Positions 27,256 through 50,651 of a stretch of 58,313 nt of DNA are shown piece by piece. The notes below the pieces were generated by a model, which had not been told where the DNA came from, did not search any database, and was given only the letters and a program-made list of their open reading frames with translations. Numbering within the stretch: the first letter of the stretch is position 1; each line of letters starts with the position of its first letter. Source of the DNA: a virus; the IMG/VR virus record IMGVR_UViG_3300037264_003745, positions 1-58,313 of that record. One strand, given 5' to 3'. The translations under genes were made by a program, and so were the position numbers.

Positions 27256-30200
27256 GTGAGCAGCTCCATCACGCATCTCGAGCGTCTCCGAAGACTCCGG
27301 CTCCTCCGTGATCAGGCTGATGATTCGAGGGACAGCGAGTTCGCGCCGCTCGACGCCATCGTCAACCCCGTCGACGATCCCAGGCTGAGCCCGGACTTCG
27401 CAGCCGCGATCCGCTCCGAGCCCGAGCCCGAGCCCGAGCCCGACAGCCCTGGCGCTCTCCGCACCGGCTGGTCCTACGCCACGTCGCCCATCCGCGCCCT
27501 GATGGGCTACACCGGCACGATCCTTCCCCAGGTCATACGCCAGTTCGACCCCGAGGCATACGGGCGTGCCGCGGAGGAGCTCAAGCAGCGGGAGAAGATC
27601 GGCCCGGAGTTCGCGCGGGGGGCTGAGGAGCTGCCGGCGACCGGCGACGTGCTGGCGCAGTACGTCCCGGATGAGGCGAGGGAGAGTCTTCTCGGCCGGA
27701 CAGTCGGCCCGGTCGCGCGCCTCGGCGCGAACATCCTCGGTGATCCGACCTCCTATATCGGTTGGGGTCTGCTCCCGAGGCTCGCCGCGGCGGGGAGAGC
27801 AGGTCGGGCGCTCGAGGGGCTCGAAGCGCTGGGGAGAGTCGGGGCGGTGAAGGAAGCTGCGAGGGCCGCTCTCGCATCCTCCACGATGGCGGGCCATCTC
27901 CGCGGCGTAGGCAAGCTCGGCCTCTCCCTCCCCATCTCCCCGTTCGCAGGGCTCGCCTACGCACCGGAGCTCGTCGAGGGTGTCGCTGGGCAGGCGAAGG
28001 AGTCGGTCGAGGCGGTGGAGGCAGGGAGGTACGAGGAAGCAGCGTCGAGCGGAGTCGGCGCGATGCTGATGGGCGGGCTCGGAGTGCTCGTCACGCGTGG
28101 TGTCATCTCCGAGTCACGGGCGGTGGACGTCGCCAAGCGGGCGGTAGACGAGCAGCTCGGGCTGACGGCGAAGGCGAAGGCGGAGGCGGATGCGAGGACG
28201 TCCGGCGGGGGAGGCGCGGAAGGCGGAATGGTCTCCCCGCGACAGCAGATTGAAGGGCTGAGGCAGGAGCCGCAGCCGACGGACGTCGAGGGCTTCGAGG
28301 GTGTCGAGGGCGAGGGATTTGCCGAGGCCCCGGCGGGGATGGCAGCCCCCACCGCCCCCACCGCCCCCACTGTCCGCGCCGAGGCCCCGCCGCAGGCCAC
28401 TCAGACCGCTCCGATCGCTCCGATCGTAGGTCCGGTCGCGGCTCCCCCGGACGTCCCCGTGCCCCTGCCGACCCTGCCGGAGGCGCTCGAGCAGCTCCTA
28501 CAGGACAAGGCGAAGTCCGGTGCCCTCCTCACCTCCTCAGAAGTTGAGTCTCTCGGACTCATATCAAAGACGAAGCGGAAGACTGCCGAGGAGAAGCTGA
28601 AGAAGCTCGGGGTGTGGGACAGGCTGGAGTACGTCCCTGGTCTTGGGTACAAGGTGAAGGCCGGGGGGCAGCCGGCTCCGCCCGTCTCCCCCACAGCCGC
28701 GCCCGACGCGCCCGACGCACCCGTCGACGCTGCCGTGCCGCGCGACACCGCCGCTCCCTCTGCGCGACCGCCGGCCGCACCCGCCCCGGCCGCTGATGGA
28801 GTCCGTCCCTCCTGGTTCCAGGAGGTTCGAGACGCTGACGCTGAGCCTGCCGAGTCCGTCTCCGCCCCCGTCTCCGCCCCCGCTCCCGCTCCCGCTCCCG
28901 CTCCCGCTCCCGCCCCCGCCGTCATCACCCGCGCCGAGATCCGCCGTCAGCTCGCCGACCCCGCTCTCCGCGCCCAGGCCGACGACGCTCTCCGCACCAT
29001 CTCCAGCGAGACCGGCGTCCCTCTCCATCTCCTCACCCCCGTTCACGTCCAGGCGGTCTTCCCAGGCGACGCCAACTCCGCCACCCGAGCCGTGCTCAAC
29101 CAGCTCGTCAGCCCCGGTCGCGAGGCTCGAGGCACGCGGCCTCCTCCGCCCGAACCCTCCGCCCCCTCCGCCTCTCTCACGCTCGACGCACTCGCCGCAC
29201 GCCAGCACGAGCCCGGAGCGCGCGCGCGCATGGAGGAGATCGCCGCCGCACCGGATCGGCCGGAAGCCGCGGCGATCGAGCCCACCCCCATCCCCCGCGC
29301 CATCCGCACGCCGGCCGAGCTCACAACCGCCCGAGCCGAGCTCCTCGAGATCCGAGACTTCGTCGCATCCGACCCCGAGCGCTGGGGACCGGCGCTCGCC
29401 GATCGCGACATCGAGCTCACGACCGCAGTCGAAGACGCCCTCCGCCGCGGTGTCGGTCCTCCGATGCCGGAGTTGCGGCGGGCGGAGAGGATGGAGGAGC
29501 TGAAGCCCGAGCCGCCCGAGCCGCGGGAGATGATCTACGAGAGCCTCCCGGCCGGGCGTCCGCGCGTCCCCGCGCCCGGTGCCGAGCGCCTGGAGCGATT
29601 GGCGCTCGCGCGGCCCGCACCCACACCCTTGACCGCCGAAGAGACCGCACGCGCCTCCGACCTGCATGAGGCGACGAGGCAGAAGTGGGCGCGGGACATG
29701 CGGGAGGGGCGGAGAAGCACCCCCGCCCCCACATCGCCAGTCACGAGAGGTCCGGTCGCGGTCGAAGCCGATATCGCAGCGGGGACCGGGCCGCTCGAGT
29801 GGATGCGAGCGTTCCTCGTCGACGAGCCAGCTACGAGCCGCATCATGCAGAAGGGGACCACGAATGGCGTTACCAGCAAAGCTGCCTACCTCGCTCCCCC
29901 TGTCTACCGCTACCAGAAGGCAGCCTTCCGCGCCGGGGCCGAGCTTTTCCTGGGCAAGTCCCGCGGCTTGGACCCAGGCCAAGGTGTGAGGCTCGCCGAC
30001 CCAACCGTCACAGTGGCTGAGCTCCACTTGGTGATGTCCGCGGCCGAGCGCAACCCCGAGATGTTTGGCGGTCGACCCCGCAACATCCGTGAGCTCGATC
30101 CGAAGCAGATGGCGGTTGCGGCTCCGCGCCTCGTCGGCACGACACGGCCGGAAGAGATCGAGATGGCAGACTGGAGCAAGGGGGGATTCCTCTACGATTC

Positions 30201-33200
30201 TCGCTCCCCCGCCGGACGCATCCAGCGACAGATCCGCAGGACCGACACCTACAGGGGACTGCCCGGAGCCGAGCAGCTTCTACAGGATAAGCTGACAGAC
30301 TGGCTCGAAGGTCTCGGTCGAGACGACGCTCTCCACCGCGCCTCCGGCGAGGCTCGCGCCGAGGTCGCGTCGCGGAAGGGTGAAGCGAAAGCAGCCGCGC
30401 TCGATGCCGCGGGAAAGACCGAAGAAGCCGCGGCCCTCCGCCAGAAGACGCTGACGGATGTCGACGCCATCTTCAGACGCGCCGAGGCCAGTGAGAAAAA
30501 CGCGCAGAATATCCGCCGTCTCCTCCTCGAGGAGCCCCCTCCGAAGCCGGTGGAGATCGAGAAACTTCTCCGCAAACATCTCGGCGACCGCTTCAAGGAC
30601 TTCCTCAAGGTCAAGGCTCCGGGCGGCAAGAACACATCGTTCATAGATGACGTGATCGCGAACGGGGAGGCCGCACGTCTCGACAAGAGCCTGCACGGCC
30701 GCAGCGCTGTCTCCGACGAGGGAGTCCTCCGTGTCGCCGCGCTGGACGCGGGGCAGCACGCTCTCATCGAGCCTGCCGCCGCATCCGTCGAACCCGCCAA
30801 ACCCGCTCCCCGCCCGGTCCCGCGTTATGCTGTCGACATCCCCACCCGCCCCGAGGGTCTCTCCACAGCCGATTGGACGCGCCACGTCACCTCCGACAGT
30901 GGTCGCGATCTTCTCCACCGCATCCTTGGCTCCGTCTCGCGTCTGCGCTGGGAGGCGGAGGCCAGCAAGGGGCAGCTCAACTCCCAGCACATCATCGACC
31001 TTCGCCGGATCGCATCGGACCTCGGCATCTCGGAAGGTAACAAGAAGAGCGCGAGCAAGATCGCTGACGGGATCGCCAACAAGCTCGAGCGCGAGCTTCC
31101 CTCGCCCTCCGCCTCCGCTTTCCTCACCGACGAGCTCGTCGCCGAACGAGGCTCGGTGTGGAGACAGGCCGTAGAGCGCTCCTCGGTCGATCCCACCACC
31201 AACGCTCGAGTCGTGGACTTCGAGGGCGACGCCGCGGATCTCGTCCAGCCCCTCCACTCCGTCCTCAGCTCGGACTACGTCGCCGCTGTCTCCCGCGTCA
31301 TCTCCGACGCAGCTCGCCTCACCAAGCTCCCCTCGAGCCTCGGCGGCTTCATGTCGTCCCCGGCGCTCGAGGGCGTCCGTCTCGATGACGGCGTCTACAT
31401 CAACTCTCTTCACAGCCGTCACCGGGCGCTCTCCGAAGTGCCTGCCGGGCTCGAGGGAGAAGCACGCGCGGATGCGCTCAACTACCTCACAGCCCGTTCC
31501 ACCGTCGATCTCATCCTCCACGAGATCACGCACAAGTCTCTCAACCTCGCTCGTCACGTCGCAGAGACCGCTGACGTAGCGTTCTCACGCGCGTACTCGG
31601 ACGTCATACGCACGGTGTCGCCGATCTACGGCGACCTCGTCCGCCGCGTGCAGGACACACTCTCGCCGCTCTCTGCCCAGCTCGATGAGGTGTACCCGTC
31701 CTATCGCACTGCGTTCGAGCGTTACAAGGAAGGAGCTGAACGTGTCAAGTCCGGTCCCGGTCCCGGTCCCGTCTCCGCCGTCTCCGTCCCCACAGGATCT
31801 CGTGCTCGGACAGATCAAGCAGTCCATCCGCCCGGTCAACCCGGATCCACGGGAGATCGAGCAGGCGCTTCTCATGGCGTTCCGCCTGGGGTACGACCCA
31901 TCCGACCTATACCTCCGGGCGATCCAGGCGCGGCCGCAGGAGTTCGATCCGGCACCGGGGATAGGGGAGGTGCTGACGCCGGAGGTGCTGGAGTACCTGA
32001 GCACCTGGGACGAGAGGTCGAACGCGGGCGAGTAGCATCTCCCTCAGCCGCCGCTACGCTCACGGATTCGAGCGTCACCCTCGGATCGGCCAAGCACGCG
32101 CAGGAAGTCGAAGACCACTTCGCACGCTTCTTCGCCTCCGAAACCGCACGCTACTCCGGCCACCCAGAGGCCGCGGATCGCTACCTCAAACAGCTCGAGG
32201 CCGTCCGCGCTCTCCCGCCCGACGTGCAGGCCCGGATGAAAGCGGCCGGCCCCCGACGCCCATTCGACATCGGCTACAACGTCACCAAGATCCACCCCGA
32301 CGCCATGTCGGACGAGCAGCGGATGGTGGTGGCGATGGCGGTCAAGATGCGGGAGGCCATCCAGAGGGTCGGAGGTGATCCCGCCTCCCGAGCCGTCCCC
32401 TACACGCGCGAGCGCTTGCGCGAGGACATGAAGGTCGTCCTCGGCACTCACACGCCGGAGGAGTTCGTCGACATGGCGGCGGTGGCGAGGACGATCCAGA
32501 CCCCTGCTGATCTCGCGCTCCTCAAGACGGTCGCCGTGACGTTCTCGGCCAAGGTGGACGAGTACCGAACGCGACTCGTGGCTGCGGAGAGAGACCTCGC
32601 TACAGCCAAGAAGTCCGGCGACACGGTCGCGGAGAGCGAAGCCCGCTCGAACGTCACGGTGACGAACGATCTGCTCGCTCAAGCCGTCCTCCGCAGTGAA
32701 CACGCGATCTTCACGCTTCTCCCGCACACCACGCGCGTCGCACGGATGCTGCAAGCTCTCAACCAGACGTTCGCACCGCTCACCGCTGAAGAGACTTTCC
32801 GCTCTCGATTCATGGGAGCGCTGTCGAACTCCCATGTCAAGAAGCCGAAGGCCGAAGAGTTCTACGAGATGTTCATGGATCAGCGGAAGCTCGGACCGGC
32901 CGCGAATTGGTCTGAGTTCATCACCGCATTCCGAAAGGCGACCAAGCCGAGCTACTTCAACCGCTTCATCGAGTTCTGGAAGGCCGGTCTCCTCGGCATC
33001 CCAACGCAGATCGTCAACGTCACTAGCACCGGTGGATTCCTCGCACTCCGCAACCTCGAGCACGCTGTCTCTATTCCCGCGAACATCGCCTTCACCAGTC
33101 TGCGGGGGCGCTCCCAGGAGCGCTTCATCAGCGAGGCCGCAGCTCGCATGAAGTCGACGCGGATGGGACTGCGAGAGGCGTGGGACGGGCTCAAGCTGGA

Positions 33201-34767
33201 TATCGGGGATATCGCCAACCTCCGACCACCCGATCTCGGGCGACGCCTCGAGATGGGGTCGTTCTATGACGAGCCCAACCTCCGACAGCTCTTCGGCGCT
33301 ATCGGTGGAAAGACTGGGGAGTTCGTGCGCATCCCCTTCAAGTTCCTCGACGCCTTCGACAACTTCTACAAGCACATCATTCGGAATCAGGAGTGGGCGG
33401 CGAGAGCGAACCGGATGGCGCACGATGTCGAACGCCGCTCTCCTGGCGAGGCCGTCTCTCATGCATCCGACCGCATCTACGACGAGCTCCGCCGCCTCGC
33501 ATCGGACCCGTTCTCGCACTTCGAGCTGTGGAAGAAGCCCGGCTATCGAGAGGCGATCGAAGGGGGTCGGAACGCTTCCACCTCCGACACGTTCCAGGAG
33601 GCTCTCGTCGGGAACTCGGTGCGGAGAGCCATGGGTAACTTCCGCGATGGTGTGCAGGCTCATCCAGCGCTCGAGCTCCTCTTCCCCTTCTGGAAGACAC
33701 CTTTCAACATCCTCGCCGAGGGGATGAAGCGCACGCCGATCGCGGTGGCCTGGGCGCTCCGCAAGTATGCGAAGGGCGAGCCCGGATTCGACGACCCGGC
33801 ATTCATCGAGGCCATGGTGAAGTCCGGTCTCGGCAGCATCTTCATGCTGTCCGCGGCTGGTCTCGCCCTCCAAGGCGGGTTGACCGGTGGCGGACCTGCC
33901 GATCCAAAGCAAGCCCAGCTCCTCAAGAACACGGGTTGGCAGCCGCGGTCATTCAAGATCGGCGACCAGTACATCTCCTATCAGCGCCTCGCTCCCTTCT
34001 CGATCCTGATCGGGATGGCGGCGGACATCGCCGAAGCCTGGGAGCGCAAGGACATCGACACGGGGGCGGAGCTCATCCAGAAAGGCGTCGCGTCGTTCTC
34101 GGACAACGTCATGGATCAGACGTTCGTCACCGGACTCAGCGCGCTCACGAAGATCCTGACGGACCCGCAGCGCGAGGGTCTGTCCGCCATCCGCGGTCTC
34201 CAGGCGTCGCTCATCCCGAACATCGTCGGCGTCGTGCCGGTCGGCCATCTCGCCCGCGCGATTGATCCGATCTACCGCGAAACCGAGGCGTTCACGACCA
34301 GCCCGATGCAAGCGCAGGTGCCGTTCCTCTCGAAGCTCCTCCCGCCGCAGCTCGAGCCGACCGGAGAGCAGCGAGAACGCAAGGGCACACCGGTTGAGCG
34401 TCTCCTCTTGCCGTTCACACGCTCGACCGTCCAGACCGGGCCGATCGCCGACGCTGCGACGGAGATCGTGCGGCTCGGGAAGTCGCTCGAACCCACGCCG
34501 CGCTTCTTCCGTGTCGGCGAGGAGCGCATCTACTACTCGGAGAGTGAGCGCGAGCAGATCGCGAATGCGGTGACGCGGGGAGTGCGTGAAGTGGCCCGGC
34601 TCACTCGGAAGTCCTCCTATCGTGCGCTGCCGGACGCCGATTCTCCCGAGGATCCAGGCGCGCGCACGAAGTACGACGCCATCCTCGCCATCCTCAATCA
34701 CTACCGCGCACCTGTCACGGCGAGAGCGCGAAGAGCGGCGGAGCGGCGTTGGAGAGCGGAGAGATGA
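27256..34767 (+). CDS. Giant internal virion / polyvalent protein with zincin motif
   Basis: The protein has 2503 residues from GTG 27256. Such giants in podoviruses are packed in the head and ejected into the host. Residues about 330-670 are Pro/Ala-rich linkers, including an (AP)n run. A HExxH motif, DLILHEITHKSLNLA, lies at about 1418-1432. Residues about 1496-1593 are Gly/Pro/Arg-rich and coincide with a nested gene in another frame. The C-terminal 450 residues (GWQPRSFKIGDQYISYQRLA) carry a conserved-looking internal-protein domain and hydrophobic segments. Start and stop overlap neighbours tightly. Confidence 0.8.
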   Translation: MSSSITHLERLRRLRLLRDQADDSRDSEFAPLDAIVNPVDDPRLSPDFAAAIRSEPEPEPEPDSPGALRTGWSYATSPIRALMGYTGTILPQVIRQFDPEAYGRAAEELKQREKIGPEFARGAEELPATGDVLAQYVPDEARESLLGRTVGPVARLGANILGDPTSYIGWGLLPRLAAAGRAGRALEGLEALGRVGAVKEAARAALASSTMAGHLRGVGKLGLSLPISPFAGLAYAPELVEGVAGQAKESVEAVEAGRYEEAASSGVGAMLMGGLGVLVTRGVISESRAVDVAKRAVDEQLGLTAKAKAEADARTSGGGGAEGGMVSPRQQIEGLRQEPQPTDVEGFEGVEGEGFAEAPAGMAAPTAPTAPTVRAEAPPQATQTAPIAPIVGPVAAPPDVPVPLPTLPEALEQLLQDKAKSGALLTSSEVESLGLISKTKRKTAEEKLKKLGVWDRLEYVPGLGYKVKAGGQPAPPVSPTAAPDAPDAPVDAAVPRDTAAPSARPPAAPAPAADGVRPSWFQEVRDADAEPAESVSAPVSAPAPAPAPAPAPAPAVITRAEIRRQLADPALRAQADDALRTISSETGVPLHLLTPVHVQAVFPGDANSATRAVLNQLVSPGREARGTRPPPPEPSAPSASLTLDALAARQHEPGARARMEEIAAAPDRPEAAAIEPTPIPRAIRTPAELTTARAELLEIRDFVASDPERWGPALADRDIELTTAVEDALRRGVGPPMPELRRAERMEELKPEPPEPREMIYESLPAGRPRVPAPGAERLERLALARPAPTPLTAEETARASDLHEATRQKWARDMREGRRSTPAPTSPVTRGPVAVEADIAAGTGPLEWMRAFLVDEPATSRIMQKGTTNGVTSKAAYLAPPVYRYQKAAFRAGAELFLGKSRGLDPGQGVRLADPTVTVAELHLVMSAAERNPEMFGGRPRNIRELDPKQMAVAAPRLVGTTRPEEIEMADWSKGGFLYDSRSPAGRIQRQIRRTDTYRGLPGAEQLLQDKLTDWLEGLGRDDALHRASGEARAEVASRKGEAKAAALDAAGKTEEAAALRQKTLTDVDAIFRRAEASEKNAQNIRRLLLEEPPPKPVEIEKLLRKHLGDRFKDFLKVKAPGGKNTSFIDDVIANGEAARLDKSLHGRSAVSDEGVLRVAALDAGQHALIEPAAASVEPAKPAPRPVPRYAVDIPTRPEGLSTADWTRHVTSDSGRDLLHRILGSVSRLRWEAEASKGQLNSQHIIDLRRIASDLGISEGNKKSASKIADGIANKLERELPSPSASAFLTDELVAERGSVWRQAVERSSVDPTTNARVVDFEGDAADLVQPLHSVLSSDYVAAVSRVISDAARLTKLPSSLGGFMSSPALEGVRLDDGVYINSLHSRHRALSEVPAGLEGEARADALNYLTARSTVDLILHEITHKSLNLARHVAETADVAFSRAYSDVIRTVSPIYGDLVRRVQDTLSPLSAQLDEVYPSYRTAFERYKEGAERVKSGPGPGPVSAVSVPTGSRARTDQAVHPPGQPGSTGDRAGASHGVPPGVRPIRPIPPGDPGAAAGVRSGTGDRGGADAGGAGVPEHLGREVERGRVASPSAAATLTDSSVTLGSAKHAQEVEDHFARFFASETARYSGHPEAADRYLKQLEAVRALPPDVQARMKAAGPRRPFDIGYNVTKIHPDAMSDEQRMVVAMAVKMREAIQRVGGDPASRAVPYTRERLREDMKVVLGTHTPEEFVDMAAVARTIQTPADLALLKTVAVTFSAKVDEYRTRLVAAERDLATAKKSGDTVAESEARSNVTVTNDLLAQAVLRSEHAIFTLLPHTTRVARMLQALNQTFAPLTAEETFRSRFMGALSNSHVKKPKAEEFYEMFMDQRKLGPAANWSEFITAFRKATKPSYFNRFIEFWKAGLLGIPTQIVNVTSTGGFLALRNLEHAVSIPANIAFTSLRGRSQERFISEAAARMKSTRMGLREAWDGLKLDIGDIANLRPPDLGRRLEMGSFYDEPNLRQLFGAIGGKTGEFVRIPFKFLDAFDNFYKHIIRNQEWAARANRMAHDVERRSPGEAVSHASDRIYDELRRLASDPFSHFELWKKPGYREAIEGGRNASTSDTFQEALVGNSVRRAMGNFRDGVQAHPALELLFPFWKTPFNILAEGMKRTPIAVAWALRKYAKGEPGFDDPAFIEAMVKSGLGSIFMLSAAGLALQGGLTGGGPADPKQAQLLKNTGWQPRSFKIGDQYISYQRLAPFSILIGMAADIAEAWERKDIDTGAELIQKGVASFSDNVMDQTFVTGLSALTKILTDPQREGLSAIRGLQASLIPNIVGVVPVGHLARAIDPIYRETEAFTTSPMQAQVPFLSKLLPPQLEPTGEQRERKGTPVERLLLPFTRSTVQTGPIADAATEIVRLGKSLEPTPRFFRVGEERIYYSESEREQIANAVTRGVREVARLTRKSSYRALPDADSPEDPGARTKYDAILAILNHYRAPVTARARRAAERRWRAER
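31742..32035 (+). CDS. Nested overprinted gene inside the giant virion gene
   Basis: This is a 97-codon frame, +1 relative to the giant gene, entirely inside it. AAGGAG (31730-31735) lies 6 nt before GTG 31742. The product begins with a Pro/Val repeat, then has a well-formed helical domain (IEQALLMAFRLGYDPSDLYL; GEVLTPEVLEYLSTWDERS). Third codon positions are strongly G/C. Over exactly the same stretch the giant frame becomes Gly/Pro/Arg-rich and low in complexity, and it recovers after the nested stop. It could instead be the scar of an inserted gene or of a frameshift in the assembly. Confidence 0.6.
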   Translation: MSSPVPVPVPSPPSPSPQDLVLGQIKQSIRPVNPDPREIEQALLMAFRLGYDPSDLYLRAIQARPQEFDPAPGIGEVLTPEVLEYLSTWDERSNAGE

Positions 34768-35993
34768 AGTACGCCTCGAGTCGCACCGTCGACACACCGC
34801 CTCGGATCGTTGGCCGCAATCCAACCGAGTACGCACAGGAGCTCCAGGAGTTTCTCGAGAAGCTACACGCGAATATCACGGGCGGTATTCCGCCGGGGTT
34901 CAACGATATCGCGCCGCCTGACATCGAGGGCGGGGTGAGTGCAGCTGCTGGGGCAGAGTCGGACGGCTGGGCCTCGGCATCCCACCAGCACGCGCTGGAC
35001 ACCGCTGGGACGCCGGGCACGGTGGCGACGGTCTCGGCTCAGGGCGACGGGCCGAGCGTCTCGCTCAACGCTCACACGCACCGCCTTGGCATCCTCACCA
35101 CGAAGGGTGATCTTGTCGCGCACAACGGAACCGACCCGGTGCGCTTGCCCGTGGGAACAGCGGCTCTCGTGCTGACGGTCGACGCTGTTGAGACGGCCGG
35201 CGTGAAGTGGTCGACCATGGATCACGGGGCGCTGACCGGGCTCGGAGACGACGACCACACGCAGTACGTGCAAGAGACGACGACGATCTCCACCACCGCA
35301 CCTCTCACGGGCGGGGGGGATCTGAGCGCGAACCGCACGCTGGCGATCTCCGACTTCGGTGGAGACGCAGGGGCGGGGGGGACGAAAGGATCAGTACCCG
35401 CGCCTGCTACCGGTGACGCGGCGGCGGGGAAGTATTTGAAGGCGAGCGGCGGATGGGAGGTGCCACCGGATACGACCGGAGTCCCGACCTCGCGGACGAT
35501 CTCCACAACGGCACCGCTCACCGGGGGCGGCGACCTCACCACGAATCGCACGCTCGATGTCAGCAACTTCGGCGGAGACGCCGGGGCTGGCGGGACGAAG
35601 GGCACGGTGCCGGCTCCGGCGACAGGCGATGCGGCGGCGGGGAAGTATCTCAAGGCGGATGGCACATGGGCAGTCCCGGCGGGCGGTGGAGGTGGAGACC
35701 ACGGCGGGCTGACCGGACTCGCCGACGACGATCACGCGCAGTATCTGATCCTCACCGGAGCGCGCCCGATGACCGGCGCACTCGACATGGATCAGCACTC
35801 GATCACCGACCCGACGCACGTCGACATGGATGTCAGCGTTGCGGCGGGCACGAGCTACACGGCGGCGGAGGGGATCGTCTCGTGGGACTCGGTCGAAGAC
35901 ACGCTCATCGCATACGTGCGGAGCGGGAGCGGCGCCGCGGTCGTGCTGGTGGCGCTCGGCTGGGGCTGCCTGGCGGCGGTGAACGGGACATGA
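34764..35993 (+). CDS. Tail fibre protein with tandem internal repeats
   Basis: The protein has 409 residues. ATG 34764 overlaps the giant gene's stop (ATGA). After an N-terminal attachment region, two near-identical about 57-residue repeats begin with ISTTAPLTGGGDL, one 71-codon period apart. Outside them are two DHGxLTGLxDDDHxQY motifs. Such His/Asp repeats are known from phage tail-fibre shafts, where they bind metal ions and set fibre length. The end includes a Trp/Gly-rich tip. It overlaps the next gene by four bases. Likely a fibre shaft or neck. Confidence 0.75.
   Translation: MKYASSRTVDTPPRIVGRNPTEYAQELQEFLEKLHANITGGIPPGFNDIAPPDIEGGVSAAAGAESDGWASASHQHALDTAGTPGTVATVSAQGDGPSVSLNAHTHRLGILTTKGDLVAHNGTDPVRLPVGTAALVLTVDAVETAGVKWSTMDHGALTGLGDDDHTQYVQETTTISTTAPLTGGGDLSANRTLAISDFGGDAGAGGTKGSVPAPATGDAAAGKYLKASGGWEVPPDTTGVPTSRTISTTAPLTGGGDLTTNRTLDVSNFGGDAGAGGTKGTVPAPATGDAAAGKYLKADGTWAVPAGGGGGDHGGLTGLADDDHAQYLILTGARPMTGALDMDQHSITDPTHVDMDVSVAAGTSYTAAEGIVSWDSVEDTLIAYVRSGSGAAVVLVALGWGCLAAVNGT
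35286..35669 (+). repeat. Two-unit coding repeat in tail fibre
   Basis: Two units start at 35286 and 35499 (213-bp period). Each encodes ISTTAPLTGGGDL through about 57 residues ending in AAAGKYLKA. They differ at few positions, so recombination between them could change fibre length. Confidence 0.8.
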
Positions 35994-39264: not shown

Positions 39265-41883
39265 TCATGCGCTCCACCCCGCCATCTTCCCCCAGCTCCT
39301 CCCGGCCTTGCTGTTCGCCGTGATCGGCACACTCACCATCCGCTGATCCGCCCGCATCATGTGCTCGACCACCTCCGCGACCTCCGCCATCCTCTCCTCC
39401 TTCACCTCCAGCAGCAACTCGTCGTGGATCTGCAACCACGGCTGGACGGCATCGCGCAGCCCTTCTTCTTCGATCCATTCCCCGCACCTTATCTCCGCCC
39501 GCTTCACCAGCCCATGCGCCCCGCCCTGAATCGGCATGTTGCCGGCGAGCCTTTGCGCCGCCTCCCGCATCGGGCCGTCGAGCACACGGAGATTCGGCAC
39601 GTAGCACATCCTCCCCCACATATCCCGCACGAACCCGTCCTTCTCCGCCTGCTCCCACAGCTTCTTGAGGTAGCGACGGACTGACGGGTACGCCGCGAAC
39701 CACTCGGCGATGAACCTCTCGCAGTCACGTAACGTGAAGTCGAAGATCCCCGCTTTGTAGAGCTGTTCGAGAAGAGCTTGCGGCGAGATGCCGTACATCA
39801 CCGCGAAGTTGATCGTCTTCGCGACGTACCTTTTCGCCGGATACTTCGCCACTTCCTCCAGTGCGATCCGAAAGATCAGCGTCGTCGTGAGCGCGTGCAG
39901 ATCCGCTCCGGCCTCGAACGCCCGCACCATCTTCGGATCCCGCGAGTGATGTGCCATCACCCGCAGCTCGATCTGGCTCGCATCACACGAGAGGATGAGG
40001 TGGCCGTCTCTCGCTACGAAGCATGACCGGATTCGCTTCCCGAGCTCCGTGCGAGTTGGGAACGCCAGCACGTTCGGCTCGTGGCTCGAGTTCCGCCCGC
40101 TGATCACACGCGTCACACGGAAGTTCGGATGCAGTCTCCAATCCCCACTCGCGTCCTGTCTCATGTATCGCAGCACGGGCAGCACGAACGTCCCATGGTA
40201 CTTGTCCGCCTCCCGGTAGTCCTGCTCAGCCTCGATGAACGCCCGGACATCCGGGTCGCCCTTCGAGTGATACCCCCGCAGCATCATCAGCGACTCGTCG
40301 CTCGTGCTCCCGCGGCCCGTGTCCGTATACCGCAGCACCGGCAGCCCCTTCGCCTTGTACAGCCACCCCGACACCTGATCGCTGCTCCCCGGATTGAACC
40401 AGCGATCCCCGACGATGCGCCGGACGTCGGCTGCCCGCTCCTCCCGCAGCTCGCTGAGCTCGGCCTCGAGCGCCCGCAGCTTCTCGAGGTCGATCCGCAG
40501 CCCGACCTCCTGCATGCGGTCGACGAAGCGGAGAGCCTTCCGATCCATCTCGTAGACGCGACTGAGACCTTTCTCCTCGACCATCCGCTTGAGACTTGGC
40601 TCGATGAGCGCCGTCGCCACGGCATCCAGCCCGCTATACGCCACGGCCTTCTTCCGCGGCACGCTGAAGATCGCGAAGTCAGGAAACTCCCTGCCGACAT
40701 TCGCCGTTGCCTTCGCCTGGAACTCCCGCGTGAAGTCGATCCACTGCGTCTCGCCGATCTCAGCCCAGCGCTTCTCGAGCTTCGTCTCGTCAGGCTTCGT
40801 CTCGTACGACTTCAGCAGATTCCCGATCCTCCGCCCCAACCCCTGCGGCTTGTACTCTCGCCACTTCCGCTTCGCCAGATCCGCGACCGCGATCGGCTCA
40901 GGCTTGTCGTACTCGAACTCCGCCGCCTTCCGTAGCCACGCGACCGCCTCCCGATTGAACCACGGCCGCACGATGTCCTCGAAGCTCGCCATCTTCATGC
41001 CGCAGTGGCGGAAGGCGAGAGCCTTCAAGGCTTGCGGCTCGAGCCGCAGGTTGAACGCCATCACCATCGTGTCGTCGACGTCGATCTCGCTCGTGTCGAT
41101 GCCCATCGCACGGAGGACGGGGAGATCGTGGAGGGCGTTGTGGAAGACGATGCGGCCGCGGAGTCGAGGCGGCTTCCATCCGGGCCGATACAGCACCACC
41201 TCCGCCACTCGCCCGTCCTTCGACCAGCTAAACCCCCAGGGCCGCGGGACGAGTCCCTCGGTATCGACGAACCCCCCGACGTACTCCGGGCGCGGAGTCC
41301 GCTTCCACACGACCTTGTACTTCGGTCGCCGCCGCGCCTTCACCGGGTTGCGGAGGAGATATGCGAACCGCAGCAGATCGTCTTGCGCGAAGCTCGCGAG
41401 CTCCGGGTTGTAGAAGCCAGCCGCCGGGTGGTAGCACGGAACGATGACCGTGCGCGGAGCGCGCGCCGACACGCACGGCGTCCCATGCACCATCTCCATG
41501 TCGACGTCGCCGAGGAACCAGCGGGTCGGGATCCGCCCGAGCGTCGCGATCACCCGCGGCTTCACTCTCGCGATGTCAGCTCGAAGGATGTGCTCGGAGC
41601 CGGCGATCTGAGCCGGTGTCGGGTCCGGATTTCCGGACCCCGTCCAGAACGGATAAAGGTTGGTGACGAAGATGTCGGGGCGAGCGAGACCGGAGGCGCG
41701 GCAGTAAGCCGTAAAGACCGATCCCGCCTTGCCTACGAACGGCCGATGGGAGATGTGCTCGTTGTAGCCGCCGGCCTCACCGACCGCCATCCCGTCGCAG
41801 GGGATCGGACCGGCACCGTGGATGCGGTCCGGATCGTCTTCAGGCTGTGGTTCGTTCGATAGCTCGCTCGACCTCGTCCGCAT
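39265..41883 (-). CDS. Uracil-DNA glycosylase - family A DNA polymerase fusion
   Basis: The protein has 872 residues. GGGAGG lies 7 nt before ATG 41883. Domain 1 (about 20-180) resembles family 4 uracil-DNA glycosylases: VGEAGGYNEH then PFVGKAG, TNLYPFW, and a YHPA motif at 151-154. Domain 2 (about 200-425) is a 3'-5' exonuclease with DTEG (207-210), HNALHDLP and YSGLD (416-420). Domain 3 is a Pol I-type polymerase: SCDASQIELR (motif A, Asp 634), KTINFAVMYG (motif B) and IHDELLLEV (motif C, 819-827). All catalytic residues are present. The fusion could remove uracil as DNA is copied. Confidence 0.9.
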   Translation of the reverse strand: MRTRSSELSNEPQPEDDPDRIHGAGPIPCDGMAVGEAGGYNEHISHRPFVGKAGSVFTAYCRASGLARPDIFVTNLYPFWTGSGNPDPTPAQIAGSEHILRADIARVKPRVIATLGRIPTRWFLGDVDMEMVHGTPCVSARAPRTVIVPCYHPAAGFYNPELASFAQDDLLRFAYLLRNPVKARRRPKYKVVWKRTPRPEYVGGFVDTEGLVPRPWGFSWSKDGRVAEVVLYRPGWKPPRLRGRIVFHNALHDLPVLRAMGIDTSEIDVDDTMVMAFNLRLEPQALKALAFRHCGMKMASFEDIVRPWFNREAVAWLRKAAEFEYDKPEPIAVADLAKRKWREYKPQGLGRRIGNLLKSYETKPDETKLEKRWAEIGETQWIDFTREFQAKATANVGREFPDFAIFSVPRKKAVAYSGLDAVATALIEPSLKRMVEEKGLSRVYEMDRKALRFVDRMQEVGLRIDLEKLRALEAELSELREERAADVRRIVGDRWFNPGSSDQVSGWLYKAKGLPVLRYTDTGRGSTSDESLMMLRGYHSKGDPDVRAFIEAEQDYREADKYHGTFVLPVLRYMRQDASGDWRLHPNFRVTRVISGRNSSHEPNVLAFPTRTELGKRIRSCFVARDGHLILSCDASQIELRVMAHHSRDPKMVRAFEAGADLHALTTTLIFRIALEEVAKYPAKRYVAKTINFAVMYGISPQALLEQLYKAGIFDFTLRDCERFIAEWFAAYPSVRRYLKKLWEQAEKDGFVRDMWGRMCYVPNLRVLDGPMREAAQRLAGNMPIQGGAHGLVKRAEIRCGEWIEEEGLRDAVQPWLQIHDELLLEVKEERMAEVAEVVEHMMRADQRMVSVPITANSKAGRSWGKMAGWSA

Positions 41884-42040
41884 CCGCCACCCTCCCCGTC
41901 TCATACCGGAACTGCCGTGCGACGAGCGCTACTGCCGGCAACTCTCGGCAGGCTAAGAAGGCTTCGACGATCAGTCGGAGACGGGCTCGATCTTGTTCGC
42001 GCGACGCGGTGACGGTCGCGGAGTCGGAGCTCGATGACAC
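41840..42040 (-). CDS. Small helical protein overlapping polymerase start
   Basis: The protein has 66 residues from GTG 42040. It starts with a Ser-rich stretch, then a helical region (RARLRLIVEAFLACRELPAV). It overlaps the upstream zinc protein by 70 bases and the polymerase start by 44. The frame shows good G/C-ending codon use, but the long overlaps make the start uncertain. Function unknown. Confidence 0.45.
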   Translation of the reverse strand: MSSSSDSATVTASREQDRARLRLIVEAFLACRELPAVALVARQFRYETGRVADADEVERAIERTTA

Positions 42041-42186: not shown

Positions 42187-42368
42187 AGTCGGTTCGCCCC
42201 ACACCCTCCACCCACCCACCGCCCCCCGCCCTCGCGCATCGTGAGCTGCTCCTCGGCTTCCTTGACCAGTGCCGCGTCGCTCGTCACATTCTCAGCGATC
42301 CAGCGCAGATACCCGTCGTCCAGATCCTCGAGCTGCTCACCCTTGTGCTTGCCGAATGGCATCCTCAT
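42183..42368 (-). CDS. DUF3820-like small protein
   Basis: The protein has 61 residues and starts MRMPFGKHKGEQLEDLDDGY. The PFGKHKG and DGYLRWIAEN signatures match the small DUF3820 family found in phages and bacteria next to nucleases. The last 15 residues are Gly-rich. It overlaps both neighbours as ATGA. DUF3820 domains often accompany exonuclease or polymerase genes, and the role is not established. Confidence 0.7.
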   Translation of the reverse strand: MRMPFGKHKGEQLEDLDDGYLRWIAENVTSDAALVKEAEEQLTMREGGGRWVGGGCGANRL

Positions 42369-43114
42369 ATTCTCTCCCTCAGCCACCGCCACACGAACGC
42401 CGCATCCTTCTTCCCCAGCCCAGCCTTCCGCCACTCCCCCTCCGTCGCATCCGTCATCTCCGCAACCGATCGAAAGTACCGACCGACCTTGAGCGCAGTC
42501 TTCGCCCCGATCTTGTCGTACGCGAACGCGGCTTTCTGCACGCGGTTCGGCTTGTGGATCATGGCGTGGATCTTGTCGGGCATCTGCATGTTGAGCTCGA
42601 TCGCGACATGCCCGGCGTGCTGGTCGTACTTCTTGTTCCACCAGCGGAGGAGAGTTCCGAGCCACGCCGCGGTCTCGCCGTCGCTGCTCGTCCGCCACCG
42701 CCGCCCTCTCCCACCGACCGCCTCGTCGTACGTCAGCAGCCAGCCTTGCAGCGCGCTCCAGGTGAGCGGGACGCGGCTCGCCACCCACGTACCTCCGCGC
42801 CAGACCTCGATCGCGTCGTCATCGCCCGGCCGGAAGATGCCTTCGATCAGCAGCCAGATCCGATCGTACTCGTCGAGCATGCGCGGTAGCTGCGTGCCGA
42901 AGAGACGGTTCATCACGAGACTGGATCCGAGATCTCCGAGGGTCTTCCGCTCGACCCCGATCTTCCAGTCCGCTCCGGCCTTCCCGCGGCCTACACACGC
43001 GAAGTCCGCCGGCAGTCTCGGATAGAGCGAGCACTTCACGCCGCGACGGCGGAGGATGGGCTCGAGCTCCTTGCTCCCGACCGCGGTGTCGATGTAGAGG
43101 ATGCCGGCTTCCAT
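42365..43114 (-). CDS. XPF/ERCC4-type nuclease with C-terminal HhH
   Basis: The protein has 249 residues. The N-terminal domain has YIDTAVGSKELEPIL and IGVERKTLGDLGSS, the ERKxxxD catalytic motif of the XPF/Mus81 family at residues 55-61, with Arg 70 and Gln 76 also conserved. A middle alpha/beta part follows, then a C-terminal helix-hairpin-helix pair (GAKTALKVGRYFRSVAEM; AGLGKKDAAFV). It should cut branched or flapped DNA. It begins directly after the previous stop. The full-length catalytic and HhH layout is unusual in so small a phage protein. Confidence 0.8.
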   Translation of the reverse strand: MEAGILYIDTAVGSKELEPILRRRGVKCSLYPRLPADFACVGRGKAGADWKIGVERKTLGDLGSSLVMNRLFGTQLPRMLDEYDRIWLLIEGIFRPGDDDAIEVWRGGTWVASRVPLTWSALQGWLLTYDEAVGGRGRRWRTSSDGETAAWLGTLLRWWNKKYDQHAGHVAIELNMQMPDKIHAMIHKPNRVQKAAFAYDKIGAKTALKVGRYFRSVAEMTDATEGEWRKAGLGKKDAAFVWRWLRERI

Positions 43115-43956: not shown

Positions 43957-44330
43957 CGCTTCTTCTCCTTCGGCGGGTCAGGCTCCCAGATCAGGGTGCC
44001 CAAGGGTGACTTCTCGGTCAGCAGTACCAACCGGTCGCAATGTACCCGCAGCCTGTCAGGCTCCAGCATCAGGCACACGCCGTCGAACCCTAGGGTGCCG
44101 TGTCCCAGCACGACGCGGTGGACCTTGCGCGGCTTGCGCTTCGTCATCGCTTCTCCTCCTTCGGCGGGCGGGTCCAGTCTTGGCGACTCGAGATCCACCA
44201 CCTTGACCCAGCGCTTCTTCCAGTCCGTCCTCGACTCGCCGTCTTCTCGTGTCGGGATGAACCAGATCGTCCCCTTCGGCAAGGACTCGTCGGTCATGAT
44301 GGGAGGATAGAAAGCGTTGTCGTCGCTCAT
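43953..44330 (-). CDS. Hypothetical protein, possibly two fused small genes
   Basis: The protein has 125 residues, with ATGA overlaps at both ends. The first half (SDDNAFYPPIMTDESLPKGT) and the second half (MTKRKPRKVHRVVLGHGTLG) look like separate domains. A strong internal site, AAGGAGGAGAAGCG, precedes ATG 44147. Near it, another frame would encode TRPPKEEKR plus a stop, echoing the true end PDPPKEKKR. This suggests that two small genes with ATGA coupling were merged by a frameshift. Function unknown. Confidence 0.5.
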   Translation of the reverse strand: MSDDNAFYPPIMTDESLPKGTIWFIPTREDGESRTDWKKRWVKVVDLESPRLDPPAEGGEAMTKRKPRKVHRVVLGHGTLGFDGVCLMLEPDRLRVHCDRLVLLTEKSPLGTLIWEPDPPKEKKR

Positions 44331-45190
44331 TCCCACTCCTCCGCATCCGTCCCCGTCACCGCCGACATCACAGTCGGAAAGCTGCACGCCCGCCCCTCAA
44401 ACTTCTCACCCTCCATCGCAGTATCCAACCGGCAGTGCTTGACCTCCACGGAGAACACACCCTTCACCTTCGCCGTCCGCATCACCACCTGCATCTCGTA
44501 CGGGGCCTGATTGTAGCCGTCGCTCACGTACTGCCCGGTCGGAGCGTTCGACTTCCACTCCTCCTTGATCCGGTGCAGCCACAACACGTTCTTGTCGTAG
44601 TTGTATCCGTCGGTGATGAGCCCTTGGAAGATCGCCTTCATGTCGCCGGACTTCGAGCCGTACGGATCGTCCTTCGCGTTCGGCCTGCCCTTGTCCATGC
44701 CGTGGAACGCAAACCGCGCGAGCGCGTACGCCGCTCCGCCCGTATCCACGATCCCCGTCCGTGCATCCGACCGATAGAACTCGTCGAGGTCGCTGATGAA
44801 CCTCTCCCACACGGGATAGGCCAACGCCTTCACGCGCTCGAGGTAGGCCGAGTCGCGCCGGCTCTCCCCCCGCATCGGCACCGGCCGCGCGAAGTGGTAG
44901 CTCGGATACTTCCCGCCGGACTTGAGCTTCGGATCCCCGGCGACCGTGATCCGCTTCCCCTTCTTCACGAACTTCTCGATCACACCCTCGAGACCGCAGT
45001 CGAAGTTGAAGATGACGATCGGATCAGGTGCCGTCACCGAGAAGTGATCCTTGCCGGTCTTCGGCCCACCCTCGATACTCGCGATGACACGGTTGGTGAG
45101 GGTGGTGGAGGTTGCGGTGACGAACGAGTCCGAGCGGAGTCCGAGCTCGCGCGGTGTCGGGTTGTCTTTGTCCTTGTCCTTGTCCTTCAC
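44327..45190 (-). CDS. Sak4-like single-strand annealing ATPase
   Basis: The protein has 287 residues from GTG 45190 (GTGA overlap). It has a Lys/Asp-rich start (MKDKDKDKDN). A RecA-like core follows: EGGPKTGKDHFSV at 40-52 resembles a Walker A loop but has Asp instead of Thr/Ser after GK. IVIFNFDCGLEG follows, and GIVDTGGAAYALARF (146-160) is Walker B-like. Sak4 family proteins pair recombinase function with a neighbouring exonuclease, as here. The Asp substitution could weaken nucleotide binding or be family-typical. The C-terminus ends in an acidic tail, common in such proteins. Confidence 0.65.
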   Translation of the reverse strand: MKDKDKDKDNPTPRELGLRSDSFVTATSTTLTNRVIASIEGGPKTGKDHFSVTAPDPIVIFNFDCGLEGVIEKFVKKGKRITVAGDPKLKSGGKYPSYHFARPVPMRGESRRDSAYLERVKALAYPVWERFISDLDEFYRSDARTGIVDTGGAAYALARFAFHGMDKGRPNAKDDPYGSKSGDMKAIFQGLITDGYNYDKNVLWLHRIKEEWKSNAPTGQYVSDGYNQAPYEMQVVMRTAKVKGVFSVEVKHCRLDTAMEGEKFEGRACSFPTVMSAVTGTDAEEWE

Positions 45191-47100: not shown

Positions 47101-47130
47101 ACTCTACCGCAGCCGGTGCCCCCTTGTCAA
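47101..47130 (-). promoter_or_regulatory. Sigma70-like promoter of the recombination genes
   Basis: On the minus strand, TTGACA (47130-47125) and TAGAGT (47106-47101) are 18 bp apart. It overlaps the helicase stop codon and lies 50 bp before GTG 47051, so it would drive the SSB-like, exonuclease, Sak4-like and polymerase genes. Confidence 0.65.
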
Positions 47131-48686
47131 CAGTCCACGTCCTCGTCCATGTTCAACGCTGGGGGTGGAGCCGGTGGCAGCCCACGTCCATCCACGCTCT
47201 TCACCGCGGCGTGCCACCATCTCGGCGCGAAGTTCCAGTGTCTCGCCATCAGCCAGCCGAGATTCGAGTCCGTCACGAATGTCTCGCACTGATCGTCCTC
47301 GGCCCTCATTCCACGCCCAGTCTCCTGCACGATCGTCTGAAGCGCCGAGTACGCACCGTACGTCTTGTCTCGCTCCTGTCTCGCACGTACGAGCGGCGAT
47401 GAGAGATCAGGAAACGGAACTTTCGGAATGATCTGATACTCGCACTGCGAAAACGGGAAGTCCAGCCCCGTCGCCACGGCGGGTGACACGAGCACACGCG
47501 CTCGGTCGCTCGCACGAAACTCTGCAACCAGATCCGCAGTCTTGCTCTTCCGACTATCGACGATGAAGATACCGCTCGTCCTGTGCCGCGATCTCCGCAG
47601 TATCTCCCACGCCCGATCGTACGAGACCGAATGAATGATGCCTTTGCGATCTCGCCGAGCGTCGATGATGAGGTCGATCGCCTCGACCCACTGCGCGCTC
47701 TGCGCCTCCGTCATTCCCCGCTTCACGTTCACGGCCGGCCAGTAGTAGACCGGCCTCCGCCTCACCGGGAAGCTGCTCTCCTGCTCATGTACGCTCACAT
47801 GCTGGTCGACTCCGAGCATCTCGAGTGTCTTCTTCCGCACGCTCGCGCTCGCGAAGATCACCTTCTTCGCGCCTCGAAACAGCAGATCCTCGGCGAGAAG
47901 CCCAGGCTCGATGAGATCCCAGCGCCAGCGCCGCGTCTTCGCATCCGCACTCGCCACCCAATCCTGCTCGCTCAGTCGACACAGCCTACCGAGATCGCGC
48001 TGCAACCGCCGCGCTCGCTTCCGCTTTCCCATGTCGAGCGTGCCCACCGTCGCCGTCAACACCCGCTCGATTCTCTCGATCGTGTCCGGTGCCCATGTCC
48101 GAAACGCCCGTTGTCCCGGCAGCGGCAGCCCGAGCTCTCTCAGCCCGGCCTCACCCACCTCGACCGCGGCGAAGTCCGATATCTGATCCGGCGCAGTATG
48201 TGCCTCGTCCAGCACCAGCACATCGAAGCCCCCGATTCCCCTGCTCTCCTCGTCGTGCAGCCAGTACGCGTAGTTCGTCACGACCAGCCGACTCGCCGCG
48301 GCCCGCCTCCTCTGATCGTAGTACCCGCACCCAGGCACCTTCAGGTACTCGCAGAAGACCCCGGCCGTGCATGCCGCCTCCGCCGCCGTCACCTCCGCGA
48401 TCTCGCAGTTGTAGTTCTGCCGCCCGCGCATGTCGATGAGACCCATCGCGCGGAAGTCCGAGAGGAGCTGGTCCTGGAGAGCGCGGGTTGCGGTCAGCAC
48501 GCACACGCGCTGATGGTCGTGGAGCGCGGCGAGACCCATGTATGTTGCGGACTTGCCCGATCCCGTCGGAGTCGTCAGCATGTCGAAGCGGTCGGACGAG
48601 TACAGGATGTCCTTGAGTGCGCGGTCCTGACCTTTGCGCCAGCTCTCGAACTTCTCCGGCAGTCCGATACTCGATGGCGTTCTCAT
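47127..48686 (-). CDS. XPD/DinG-type superfamily 2 helicase with Fe-S cysteines
   Basis: The protein has 519 residues. ATG 48686 overlaps the upstream stop (ATGA); a longer frame exists but lacks support. Walker A TPTGSGKSATY is at about 39-49 and the DEAH box VLVLDEAHTA at 156-165. Between them lie four Cys (94, 106, 112, 120) in the position of the XPD/DinG Fe-S domain. Motif VI is QETGRGMR. It should unwind DNA 5'-3' using ATP. XPD-like helicases are repair or replication-fork enzymes; here one sits with an XPF-type nuclease and a UDG-polymerase. Confidence 0.8.
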   Translation of the reverse strand: MRTPSSIGLPEKFESWRKGQDRALKDILYSSDRFDMLTTPTGSGKSATYMGLAALHDHQRVCVLTATRALQDQLLSDFRAMGLIDMRGRQNYNCEIAEVTAAEAACTAGVFCEYLKVPGCGYYDQRRRAAASRLVVTNYAYWLHDEESRGIGGFDVLVLDEAHTAPDQISDFAAVEVGEAGLRELGLPLPGQRAFRTWAPDTIERIERVLTATVGTLDMGKRKRARRLQRDLGRLCRLSEQDWVASADAKTRRWRWDLIEPGLLAEDLLFRGAKKVIFASASVRKKTLEMLGVDQHVSVHEQESSFPVRRRPVYYWPAVNVKRGMTEAQSAQWVEAIDLIIDARRDRKGIIHSVSYDRAWEILRRSRHRTSGIFIVDSRKSKTADLVAEFRASDRARVLVSPAVATGLDFPFSQCEYQIIPKVPFPDLSSPLVRARQERDKTYGAYSALQTIVQETGRGMRAEDDQCETFVTDSNLGWLMARHWNFAPRWWHAAVKSVDGRGLPPAPPPALNMDEDVDC

Positions 48687-49285
48687 TCGGCTGACTCCGA
48701 CTCCGACTCCGACTCCGACTCCCTGGCCTTCACCTTCCCACCCTTCCGCGCCCGATCGAGCATCGCCTTCGTTTTCTTCCGATACTCTGCCCGCCAATAC
48801 TCATCGCCGATCCGGTCGATCGTCACCCACACTCTCTCCGCGAGCTCGATCGCCTTCTCCCGATGCCCGTCCGTCGTCAGTCTCTCCACCGTCGTCGATA
48901 TCTTCCGCAGGATGTCGAGGTAGTAGATGTGCTCCATCTCCACCGCCGCCGCTCTCACCCAGCCGGCCAGCGTGCTCGCCTCGTTCGTCACATCCTCGTC
49001 CTTCGCCCGCTTCGACAGCTCGCCGATCCCCTGCTTGATGCACCAGCGAAAGATGTCGCTCTCCGTCTGGAATGTGAAGAGCTCTCTCGACAGGATCGTG
49101 CTCGCGATCCGCTTGTAGTCAGGCGGCGACGCGAAGCTCACATTCACGGAGCGCCCGAGCGGGTCGGATGGGCGGACGAAGTAGTCGGTGATCGGGAAGG
49201 AGGCTTCGGCGCGTGAAGGGTGGGTCTTGGCTTGACGACGACGAGTCGATGGGGAGATGCCGCGACGGTGTGAGGGGTTGGACAA
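48683..49285 (-). CDS. Hypothetical helical protein with Ser-Glu tail
   Basis: The protein has 200 residues. TTG 49285 follows GGAG by 7 nt; no ATG lies near the N-terminus. A basic N-terminus leads to a helical domain (REKAIELAERVWVTIDRIGD) and a Cys/aromatic stretch (IFRWCIKQGIGE). The C-terminus is an SE repeat encoded by CTCGGA-type tandem DNA (48691-48724). It is coupled to the helicase gene, so a helicase partner is possible. No family assigned. Confidence 0.55.
   Translation of the reverse strand: MSNPSHRRGISPSTRRRQAKTHPSRAEASFPITDYFVRPSDPLGRSVNVSFASPPDYKRIASTILSRELFTFQTESDIFRWCIKQGIGELSKRAKDEDVTNEASTLAGWVRAAAVEMEHIYYLDILRKISTTVERLTTDGHREKAIELAERVWVTIDRIGDEYWRAEYRKKTKAMLDRARKGGKVKARESESESESESAE
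48691..48724. repeat. GACTCC microsatellite in coding sequence
   Basis: Five or so tandem units encode the Ser-Glu tail of the leftward gene at 48683-49285, just before the helicase start. Confidence 0.8.
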
Positions 49286-49818: not shown

Positions 49819-50181
49819 TCAGTCTCTCACGCTGACGCCACCTCCACCTCCACCTCCACCTCCACCTCCCACCTCTTCCGCGTTCAACTTCGCCGCCAGC
49901 TCCGCAGCCTCTCGCAGCGCTTTCCCATACGCCGACCGCGGACCCGTGTACTTGCCGTCCAAGTGCTGCGTGCCACGCCCACTGTACTGGTCGCCCCACT
50001 GCTTCACCGTAGCGCGACGCACCCAAGACAGCCCCGAGCCCGGAGCGTGTTTCGCAGTGGTTGTGTCGAGCACGCGAACCACCCTGGCCCATCCCCAAAA
50101 CGTCGCCGGGGCTCGCGCGCTCTTGATGTCTACGACGTAGCGCACCGTCGGTGTGTACGTCCAGCGTGTGCTCATGCTCAT
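49819..50181 (-). CDS. Hypothetical protein with poly-Gly end
   Basis: The protein has 120 residues; ATG 50181 overlaps the upstream stop (ATGA). It has an aromatic-rich beta core (WTYTPTVRYVVDIKSARAPA; ATFWGWARVVRVLDT), then a helix, then a poly-Gly run encoded by CCTCCA repeats (49838-49872). It is the last gene before the terminator. The Gly run could vary in length. Function unknown. Confidence 0.6.
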   Translation of the reverse strand: MSMSTRWTYTPTVRYVVDIKSARAPATFWGWARVVRVLDTTTAKHAPGSGLSWVRRATVKQWGDQYSGRGTQHLDGKYTGPRSAYGKALREAAELAAKLNAEEVGGGGGGGGGGGVSVRD

Positions 50182-50651
50182 GCCGTCACCCCCACCCCCA
50201 TCCCCATCTCCTCCACCAGCCGCAGTACGAACCTTGCGTCGAACTTCCCCCCTCCGCACAGCCCGCAGCTCAACCTCCTCCCCTCCTTCGGTCTCCGATA
50301 CCGCATCTTCACCTTGCCGCAGCTCACGCACTTCAGCTTCCACTTCCCGTCGGGCTGTGCGAGAAGCGGCCGGCGCTTGCCGCTGCATCCGATCCCCTTC
50401 GCTATCCGCACCCACTCCGCATCGTGTCTCTCCGTCCCCGCGAGGGCATGTGCGATCTCGTGCAGCGTGATCTCACTCACACCCGCGGCGTCGTTCGCCC
50501 GCAGTATCGGCTCCGACAGCTCGATCCGATCGGAGTCGAGCCAGCAGAGTCCGGCCGTAGTCAGGGACTGCATGTACCCGAACGTCCACGAGTGGAGATG
50601 GTGGCGGTGCATGAGGGATGTGACGAGGAAGCGAGCTTCGATCGAGTTCAT
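50178..50651 (-). CDS. SprT-like zinc metallopeptidase
   Basis: The protein has 157 residues; GGAGG precedes ATG 50651. The HEIAHALAGTERHDAEW segment gives HExxH (64-68) and a third His (76) in the SprT/Spartan pattern. A C-terminal zinc ribbon has CVSCGK (108-113) and CGLCGG (129-134). SprT-like proteins cut proteins crosslinked or bound to DNA in host repair. In a phage it could clear host DNA-binding proteins. Overlaps both neighbours as ATGA. Confidence 0.75.
   Translation of the reverse strand: MNSIEARFLVTSLMHRHHLHSWTFGYMQSLTTAGLCWLDSDRIELSEPILRANDAAGVSEITLHEIAHALAGTERHDAEWVRIAKGIGCSGKRRPLLAQPDGKWKLKCVSCGKVKMRYRRPKEGRRLSCGLCGGGKFDARFVLRLVEEMGMGVGVTA

Follow-up and report, generated by a model that had tools for sequence, protein, structure and literature searches.

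A gene in the virus record IMGVR_UViG_3300037264_003745 (58,313 nucleotides analyzed in full, here called the window) joins what looks like a uracil-DNA glycosylase (UDG) to a family A DNA polymerase. This raises the questions of whether the UDG domain is a genuine one, how widespread such fusions are, and what a glycosylase tethered to a polymerase might do. Identical 127-bp direct repeats at the two ends of the record (1-127 and 58187-58313) make it probable that it represents an entire phage genome, circularly mapping and about 58.2 kb long.

A glycosylase, an exonuclease, and a polymerase in one chain

The reading frame is open on the minus strand for 879 codons (39265-41904) and encodes a single chain. 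The ATG at 41883, the start given in the first-pass annotation, is probably the better start codon and would yield an 872-amino-acid product; it is preferred because GGGGAGGG, a Shine-Dalgarno-like sequence at 41890-41897 (minus strand), sits 6 nt upstream. Residues are numbered below from the first of the 879 codons; positions in the 872-amino-acid product are lower by 7.

39265..41883, minus strand: UDG-exonuclease-polymerase (UDG-Exo-PolA) fusion gene (open reading frame, Pfam UDG and DNA_pol_A, AF2 full chain)
41350..41814, minus strand: family-4-type UDG domain, residues 31-185 (Pfam, Foldseek; none of four Fe-S cysteines)
41722..41781, minus strand: UDG motif A, GEAGGYNEHISHRPFVGKAG, with E43 and E49 (alignments)
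41659..41661, minus strand: N82 of the TN motif, uracil recognition position (N in 71 of 73 in the column)
41629..41631, minus strand: N92, water-activating position (N in 59 and D in 10 of 73)
41428..41430, minus strand: H159 of motif B, YHPAAG (H in 72 of 73)
40585..41289, minus strand: 3'-5' exonuclease region, residues 206-440 (motif residues, weak exo1 match)
39289..40485, minus strand: family A polymerase domain, residues 474-872 (Pfam, invariant residues)

The UDG, the 3'-5' exonuclease, and the polymerase lie in that order, the UDG occupying the N-terminal place held by the 5'-nuclease domain in cellular Pol I. The first-pass annotation had proposed this fusion from motifs in the N-terminal 180 or so residues, had suggested a profile search and a whole-chain structure prediction as checks, and had named the lack of a UDG match or fold, or a pocket lacking Asn and His, as what would refute it. 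Pfam UDG (PF03167) matched residues 31-171 (E 1.3e-15; 58.1 bits against a cutoff of 24.3), and DNA_pol_A matched residues 474-872 (E 1.2e-89, 301 bits). The AF2 model of the full chain was confident (pLDDT 91.7, pTM 0.90), as was that of the UDG domain alone (pLDDT 90.8), and in Foldseek the whole-chain model matched Pol I large fragments. With the pocket Asn and His present by sequence and fold, the proposed fusion was thus borne out, with the UDG domain spanning about residues 30-185; a scan of the window's own genome placed it at 41392-41814.

The annotation was also right that the other two active sites are intact. The exonuclease motifs are DTE (214-216), HNALHD (255-260), and YSGLD (423-427), and the polymerase motifs are A (D641), B (R692..K696), and C (H827 D828). 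D214, E216, D260, Y423, and D427, together with polymerase residues D641, K696, and D828, were invariant in an alignment with 44 relatives. Judged by its residues, the exonuclease is complete despite a sub-threshold Pfam exo1 score (E 0.0068). The best explanation of the gene product is that it is the replicative family A polymerase of the phage with an N-terminal family-4-type UDG.

Among solved structures, the UDG part matched the family 4 enzymes 4zbx (8.7e-19), 1vk2 (8.7e-15), and 1ui0 (5.4e-13) by sequence, and 4zbx, 4zby, 1ui0, and 1ui1 ranked first with the AF2 model in Foldseek (TM 0.78-0.79, E about 1e-14). A chance match or frame artifact is ruled out by the 58-bit score, the fold match, and the many relatives. 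The catalytic Glu, Asn, and motif B His of family 4 are all present as E43, N92, and H159. We take N82 to be N80 and N92 to be N89 of TthUDGa, whose row served only as an aid to alignment; the assignment to family 4 comes from the searches against solved structures and from Foldseek. The catalytic set as a whole (E43, E49, N82, N92 as N or D, and H159) is complete in the window, which is one of 66 sequences keeping it among the 70 UDGs of the IMG/VR scan; the count for the H159 column is partly biased, motif B being part of the scan pattern, while the other four positions lie outside the patterns. The position equivalent to N92 (H109 in UdgX) has been treated previously (PMC10359453). UdgX is defined by a KRRIH loop with a nucleophilic His and by GEQPG (PMC10359453), and a covalent enzyme of this type is ruled out: the window has TNLYPFWTGSGN at the loop, lacks the R-loop, and reads GEAGG.

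Motif A departs from the family 4 consensus, GEAGG standing in place of GE(A/G)PG. This Pro-to-Gly change (P45G) is unique to the window among the 70 UDGs, D50H is also private to it, and G53H is common to the window and one other sequence. In close relative pairs, all of them Fe-S-bearing, dN/dS of the UDG domain was 0.08-0.27, similar to that of the exonuclease and polymerase domains, which shows the UDG domain to be under selection in these relatives.

None of the four cysteines that would bind the 4Fe-4S cluster of family 4 is present in the window UDG, and it is therefore better described as family-4-like or derived than as a canonical family 4 enzyme. Across the group the cysteines are near all-or-none: about 47 sequences have all four, one has three, and about 22, window included, have none. 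In a tree based solely on the exonuclease and polymerase, one clade (support 95/97) contained 12 of the 13 full-length proteins that lack the Fe-S cysteines; the remaining one (L088) was a separate loss. What is specific to the window gene is a state that is Fe-S-free yet, by its residues, catalytically complete.

Spread of the fusion and repeated loss of the pocket

The remark in the first-pass annotation that uracil glycosylases are normally free enzymes overlooks a common phage architecture. The UDG-Exo-PolA fusion is not new; it has already been described, and SPO1 (gp31), PaBG, and phiLo (9qhs) rule out novelty. A tblastn search with the window UDG part returned 21 named phage records, and one with an Fe-S-bearing relative returned 107 records, of which many are annotated as polymerases. 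Individual fusions were identified in SPO1 gp31, PMBT14, and phiLo, as well as in Serbin, LysYB1, EalM132, KimJongPhill, Triscuit, StAshley, vir526, and Mel-JY34. When the UDG alignment was used to scan IMG/VR, 80 loci were recovered, and at nearly all of these the UDG was fused to an exonuclease or polymerase. Over all scans 139 open reading frames passed the fusion rule, a few being alignment failures or duplicate contigs, and the fusion was seen in well over 100 phage contigs. It is carried by tailed phages rather than by cells, and terminase, capsid, and internal virion genes were recognized in the window. A cellular origin or host fusion is disfavored, as only 1 of 10 UDG matches in cellular genomes was fused, and that one (L096) lies on a short contig of a metagenome-assembled genome.

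Several variants of these genes were encountered. In four Fe-S-less relatives (L014, 3932-6399; L019, 1933-4334; L038, 3947-6417; L041, 3923-6378) the polymerase gene consists of two overlapping reading frames, divided in one common loop that lies between motifs II and III of the exonuclease, the second frame being in -1 and preceded by a start-like codon and a Shine-Dalgarno-like sequence. This could be a two-chain polymerase or a frameshift site, and the Shine-Dalgarno-like sequences favor internal initiation over -1 frameshifting. Inserts occur near or inside the UDG part in L006 (about 9203-10283), where an HNH-like protein is encoded, and in L009 (about 935-1805), and SPO1 gene 31 has an intron with an endonuclease open reading frame. 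In Pseudomonas phage nickie (L093, 1070-4462) a C-terminal UDG (Pfam 3.6e-12), with the motif B His and TN Asn replaced, is attached to PolIII alpha; here a UDG was joined independently to a polymerase of a different family (family C).

In many of the fusions the pocket has been broken. In the SPO1-like, Serbin/PMBT14-like, and actinophage fusions, N82 is gone along with much of motif A, yet their UDGs are still detected by Pfam (Triscuit, 4.6e-09; KimJongPhill, 1.8e-07; Serbin, 1.3e-20; PMBT14, 3.7e-24; LysYB1, 5.3e-26). The near relatives L044/L243 and L074/L268 are also broken; by their substitutions, L044 (H159S) and L074 (E43S, E49D, and N92K) both look dead. The intact or broken state changed 8 times on the best tree (68 rows), with at least 5 changes forced by starred branches. 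Because the domain was kept after repeated loss of its pocket, it presumably does something besides cutting, and since many phage polymerases retain it in this condition, repair is not its sole role. The UDG domain probably also has a noncatalytic, DNA-holding role.

The state of the pocket is associated with the genes nearby. In raw counts that pool canonical thymidylate synthase (TS) with dUMP hydroxymethylase, sought within the fetched flanks only, 32 broken and 5 intact pockets had a TS beside the polymerase, and 5 broken and 26 intact had none, the set lacking TS coming mostly from one pattern scan. Strong as these counts are, the TS trait changed only 3 times on the tree, giving 2 to 3 independent pairs, and the 16 named sequences from which the idea arose are also in the larger count, which is thus no independent test; replacement of thymine is at most a candidate explanation of pocket loss.

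What the glycosylase domain may do

Genes of a replication module were recognized on the same strand.

42365..43114, minus strand: ERCC4-type nuclease gene (Pfam ERCC4, 5e-08)
44327..45190, minus strand: Sak4-like AAA ATPase gene, weakly matched (PHROG 124, E 0.001; AAA_24, E 0.003)
47127..48797, minus strand: SF2 helicase gene, start codon uncertain (PHROG 2488, 1.4e-69; Pfam Helicase_C_2, 1.8e-12)

In PMBT14 and ctfzr933, too, the fused polymerase has Sak4/AAA genes in its vicinity. Scanning of the window genes with Pfam and PHROGs, which used a simple gene caller and had limited sensitivity, recognized no dUTPase, TS, sliding clamp, ligase, or uracil-glycosylase inhibitor, and library searches of limited sensitivity recognized no AP endonuclease in the window. 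Because dUTPase, TS, the glycosylase inhibitor, and the others were not recognized, uracil incorporated into its DNA could present the phage with a genuine difficulty. Elsewhere in the window, the structural region contains a 2,503-amino-acid open reading frame (27256-34767, plus strand) without a Pfam match, and a pair of 188-nt direct repeats, 75% identical to each other, lies in a structural gene (35282-35682). A protein with an SprT-like metalloprotease domain is encoded at 50178-50651 (minus strand; Pfam 6.2e-11). SprT-like proteases in cells act on DNA-protein crosslinks, and the protein may be relevant beside an enzyme that makes abasic sites.

We consider it modestly probable that the domain carries out uracil excision tied to the replication fork and completed by host enzymes. 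The tethered UDG would act at the fork or immediately behind it, excising from phage DNA the uracil that arises from dUMP drawn from the host dUTP pool or from deaminated C. The abasic sites left behind would be repaired by host AP endonuclease and ligase together with the phage polymerase, to which the UDG domain would probably also add a DNA contact. The UDG match by profile, sequence, and fold, the intact pocket residues, selection in relatives, and the confident full-chain model are all consistent with excision. Against it, activity could be reduced by P45G, D50H, and G53H, the Fe-S cluster has been lost, and no AP endonuclease was recognized in the window with searches of limited sensitivity; moreover, retention of the domain with a broken pocket in other fusions means that excision need not be the main role. 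The suggestion in the first-pass annotation that template uracil is removed or sensed during copying is plausible on sequence grounds, while nothing here speaks for its further suggestion of APOBEC-like damage.

The repeated breakage of the pocket, its state having changed at least 5 times (8 on the best tree) in polymerases whose UDG stays recognizable to Pfam, is what would be expected if the domain mainly held or scanned DNA for the polymerase, with excision secondary or absent. Vaccinia UDG, by analogy, is a processivity factor (PMC10253040) and offers the closest precedent for a role of this kind, and no sliding clamp was recognized in the window, although a clamp could be host supplied or have escaped recognition. 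However, a purely structural module would have no need of the catalytic set that is intact in the window and in 66 of 70 of the wider group, and it seems unlikely that this is the main function here. The same set bears on whether the pocket might bind template uracil without cutting and stall the polymerase, for a pure sensor has no need of the water-activating E43/N92 pair. In archaeal family B polymerases, an N-terminal pocket stalls the polymerase at template uracil. A comparable arrangement would fit the position of the UDG directly before the exonuclease in one chain of confidently predicted overall arrangement (pTM 0.90), and the PDB title of the phiLo relative 9qhs is "family-A DNA polymerase with modified template"; nevertheless, we regard such read-ahead sensing as quite improbable.

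The substitutions around motif A (P45G, D50H, and G53H), the Fe-S loss, and the apparently dead nearby relatives L044 (H159S) and L074 (E43S, E49D, and N92K) might instead indicate a domain on its way to the broken state of L044/L243 and L074/L268. Yet E43, E49, N82, N92, and H159 all persist, as does a confidently modeled family 4 fold, despite a long branch (1.44-1.62) over which unconstrained drift would probably have erased them, and decay is very hard to credit.

A broader scheme, which we offer tentatively and think rather doubtful as it stands, is that of a dual-use module: the DNA-holding part would be kept after the pocket breaks, and catalysis would be kept with ordinary thymine and often lost beside TS-like or hydroxymethylase genes, with the window representing an Fe-S-free catalytic state. 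To return to excision at the fork, if the domain is active, the window gene would encode an Fe-S-free glycosylase, derived from family 4, that operates while joined to a replicative polymerase; the cluster would be dispensable, and a single chain would serve as a tool for removing uracil as DNA is copied. The sequences compared here provide testable contrasts, both between intact and broken pockets within one polymerase family and between phages with and without TS neighbors.

Comparison with known systems

The UDG domain resembles the family 4 enzymes of S. tokodaii (4zbx) and T. thermophilus (1ui0) in fold (TM 0.78-0.79), sequence (26-32% identity), motif A GEA..E, TN motif, catalytic Asn, and HPAA motif. 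It differs from them in lacking the 4Fe-4S ligands, in being fused to a polymerase, and in having GEAGG rather than GE(A/G)PG.

Bacillus phage SPO1 gp31 and its relatives EalM132 and LysYB1 have the same domain order, and the Cys of the KCRP position is absent from the SPO1 UDG too. However, the pocket of the SPO1 group is altered (N82 to S or G, F56 to M, and motif A broken), whereas that of the window is intact, and a dUMP hydroxymethylase/TS-like gene adjoins the SPO1-group gene, whereas no TS was recognized in the window. Gp205 of Pseudomonas phage PaBG (Lupandier group) was described in 2020 as having an N-terminal UDG, a 3'-5' exonuclease, and a polymerase, and a fidelity role was also proposed (PMC7412058). 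By this published description the three-domain layout is like that of the window protein, although PaBG belongs to a jumbo phage group. The polymerase of Thermus phage phiLo (structure solved, PDB 9qhs, released March 2026) likewise has a UDG (Pfam 5.3e-21) and PolA in one chain and keeps N82 and H159 of the pocket. It differs in length (1,175 amino acids), in its distant polymerase, and in its Cys-bearing UDG.

Vaccinia D4 is a family 1 UDG, and the vaccinia polymerase belongs to family B. D4 acts as a processivity factor with the A20/E9 polymerase (PMC10253040) and, like the UDG domain of the window, is physically attached to a viral replicative polymerase. In contrast to the single chain of the window, D4 is a separate protein bridged by A20, and the resemblance is one of arrangement only, not of relationship.
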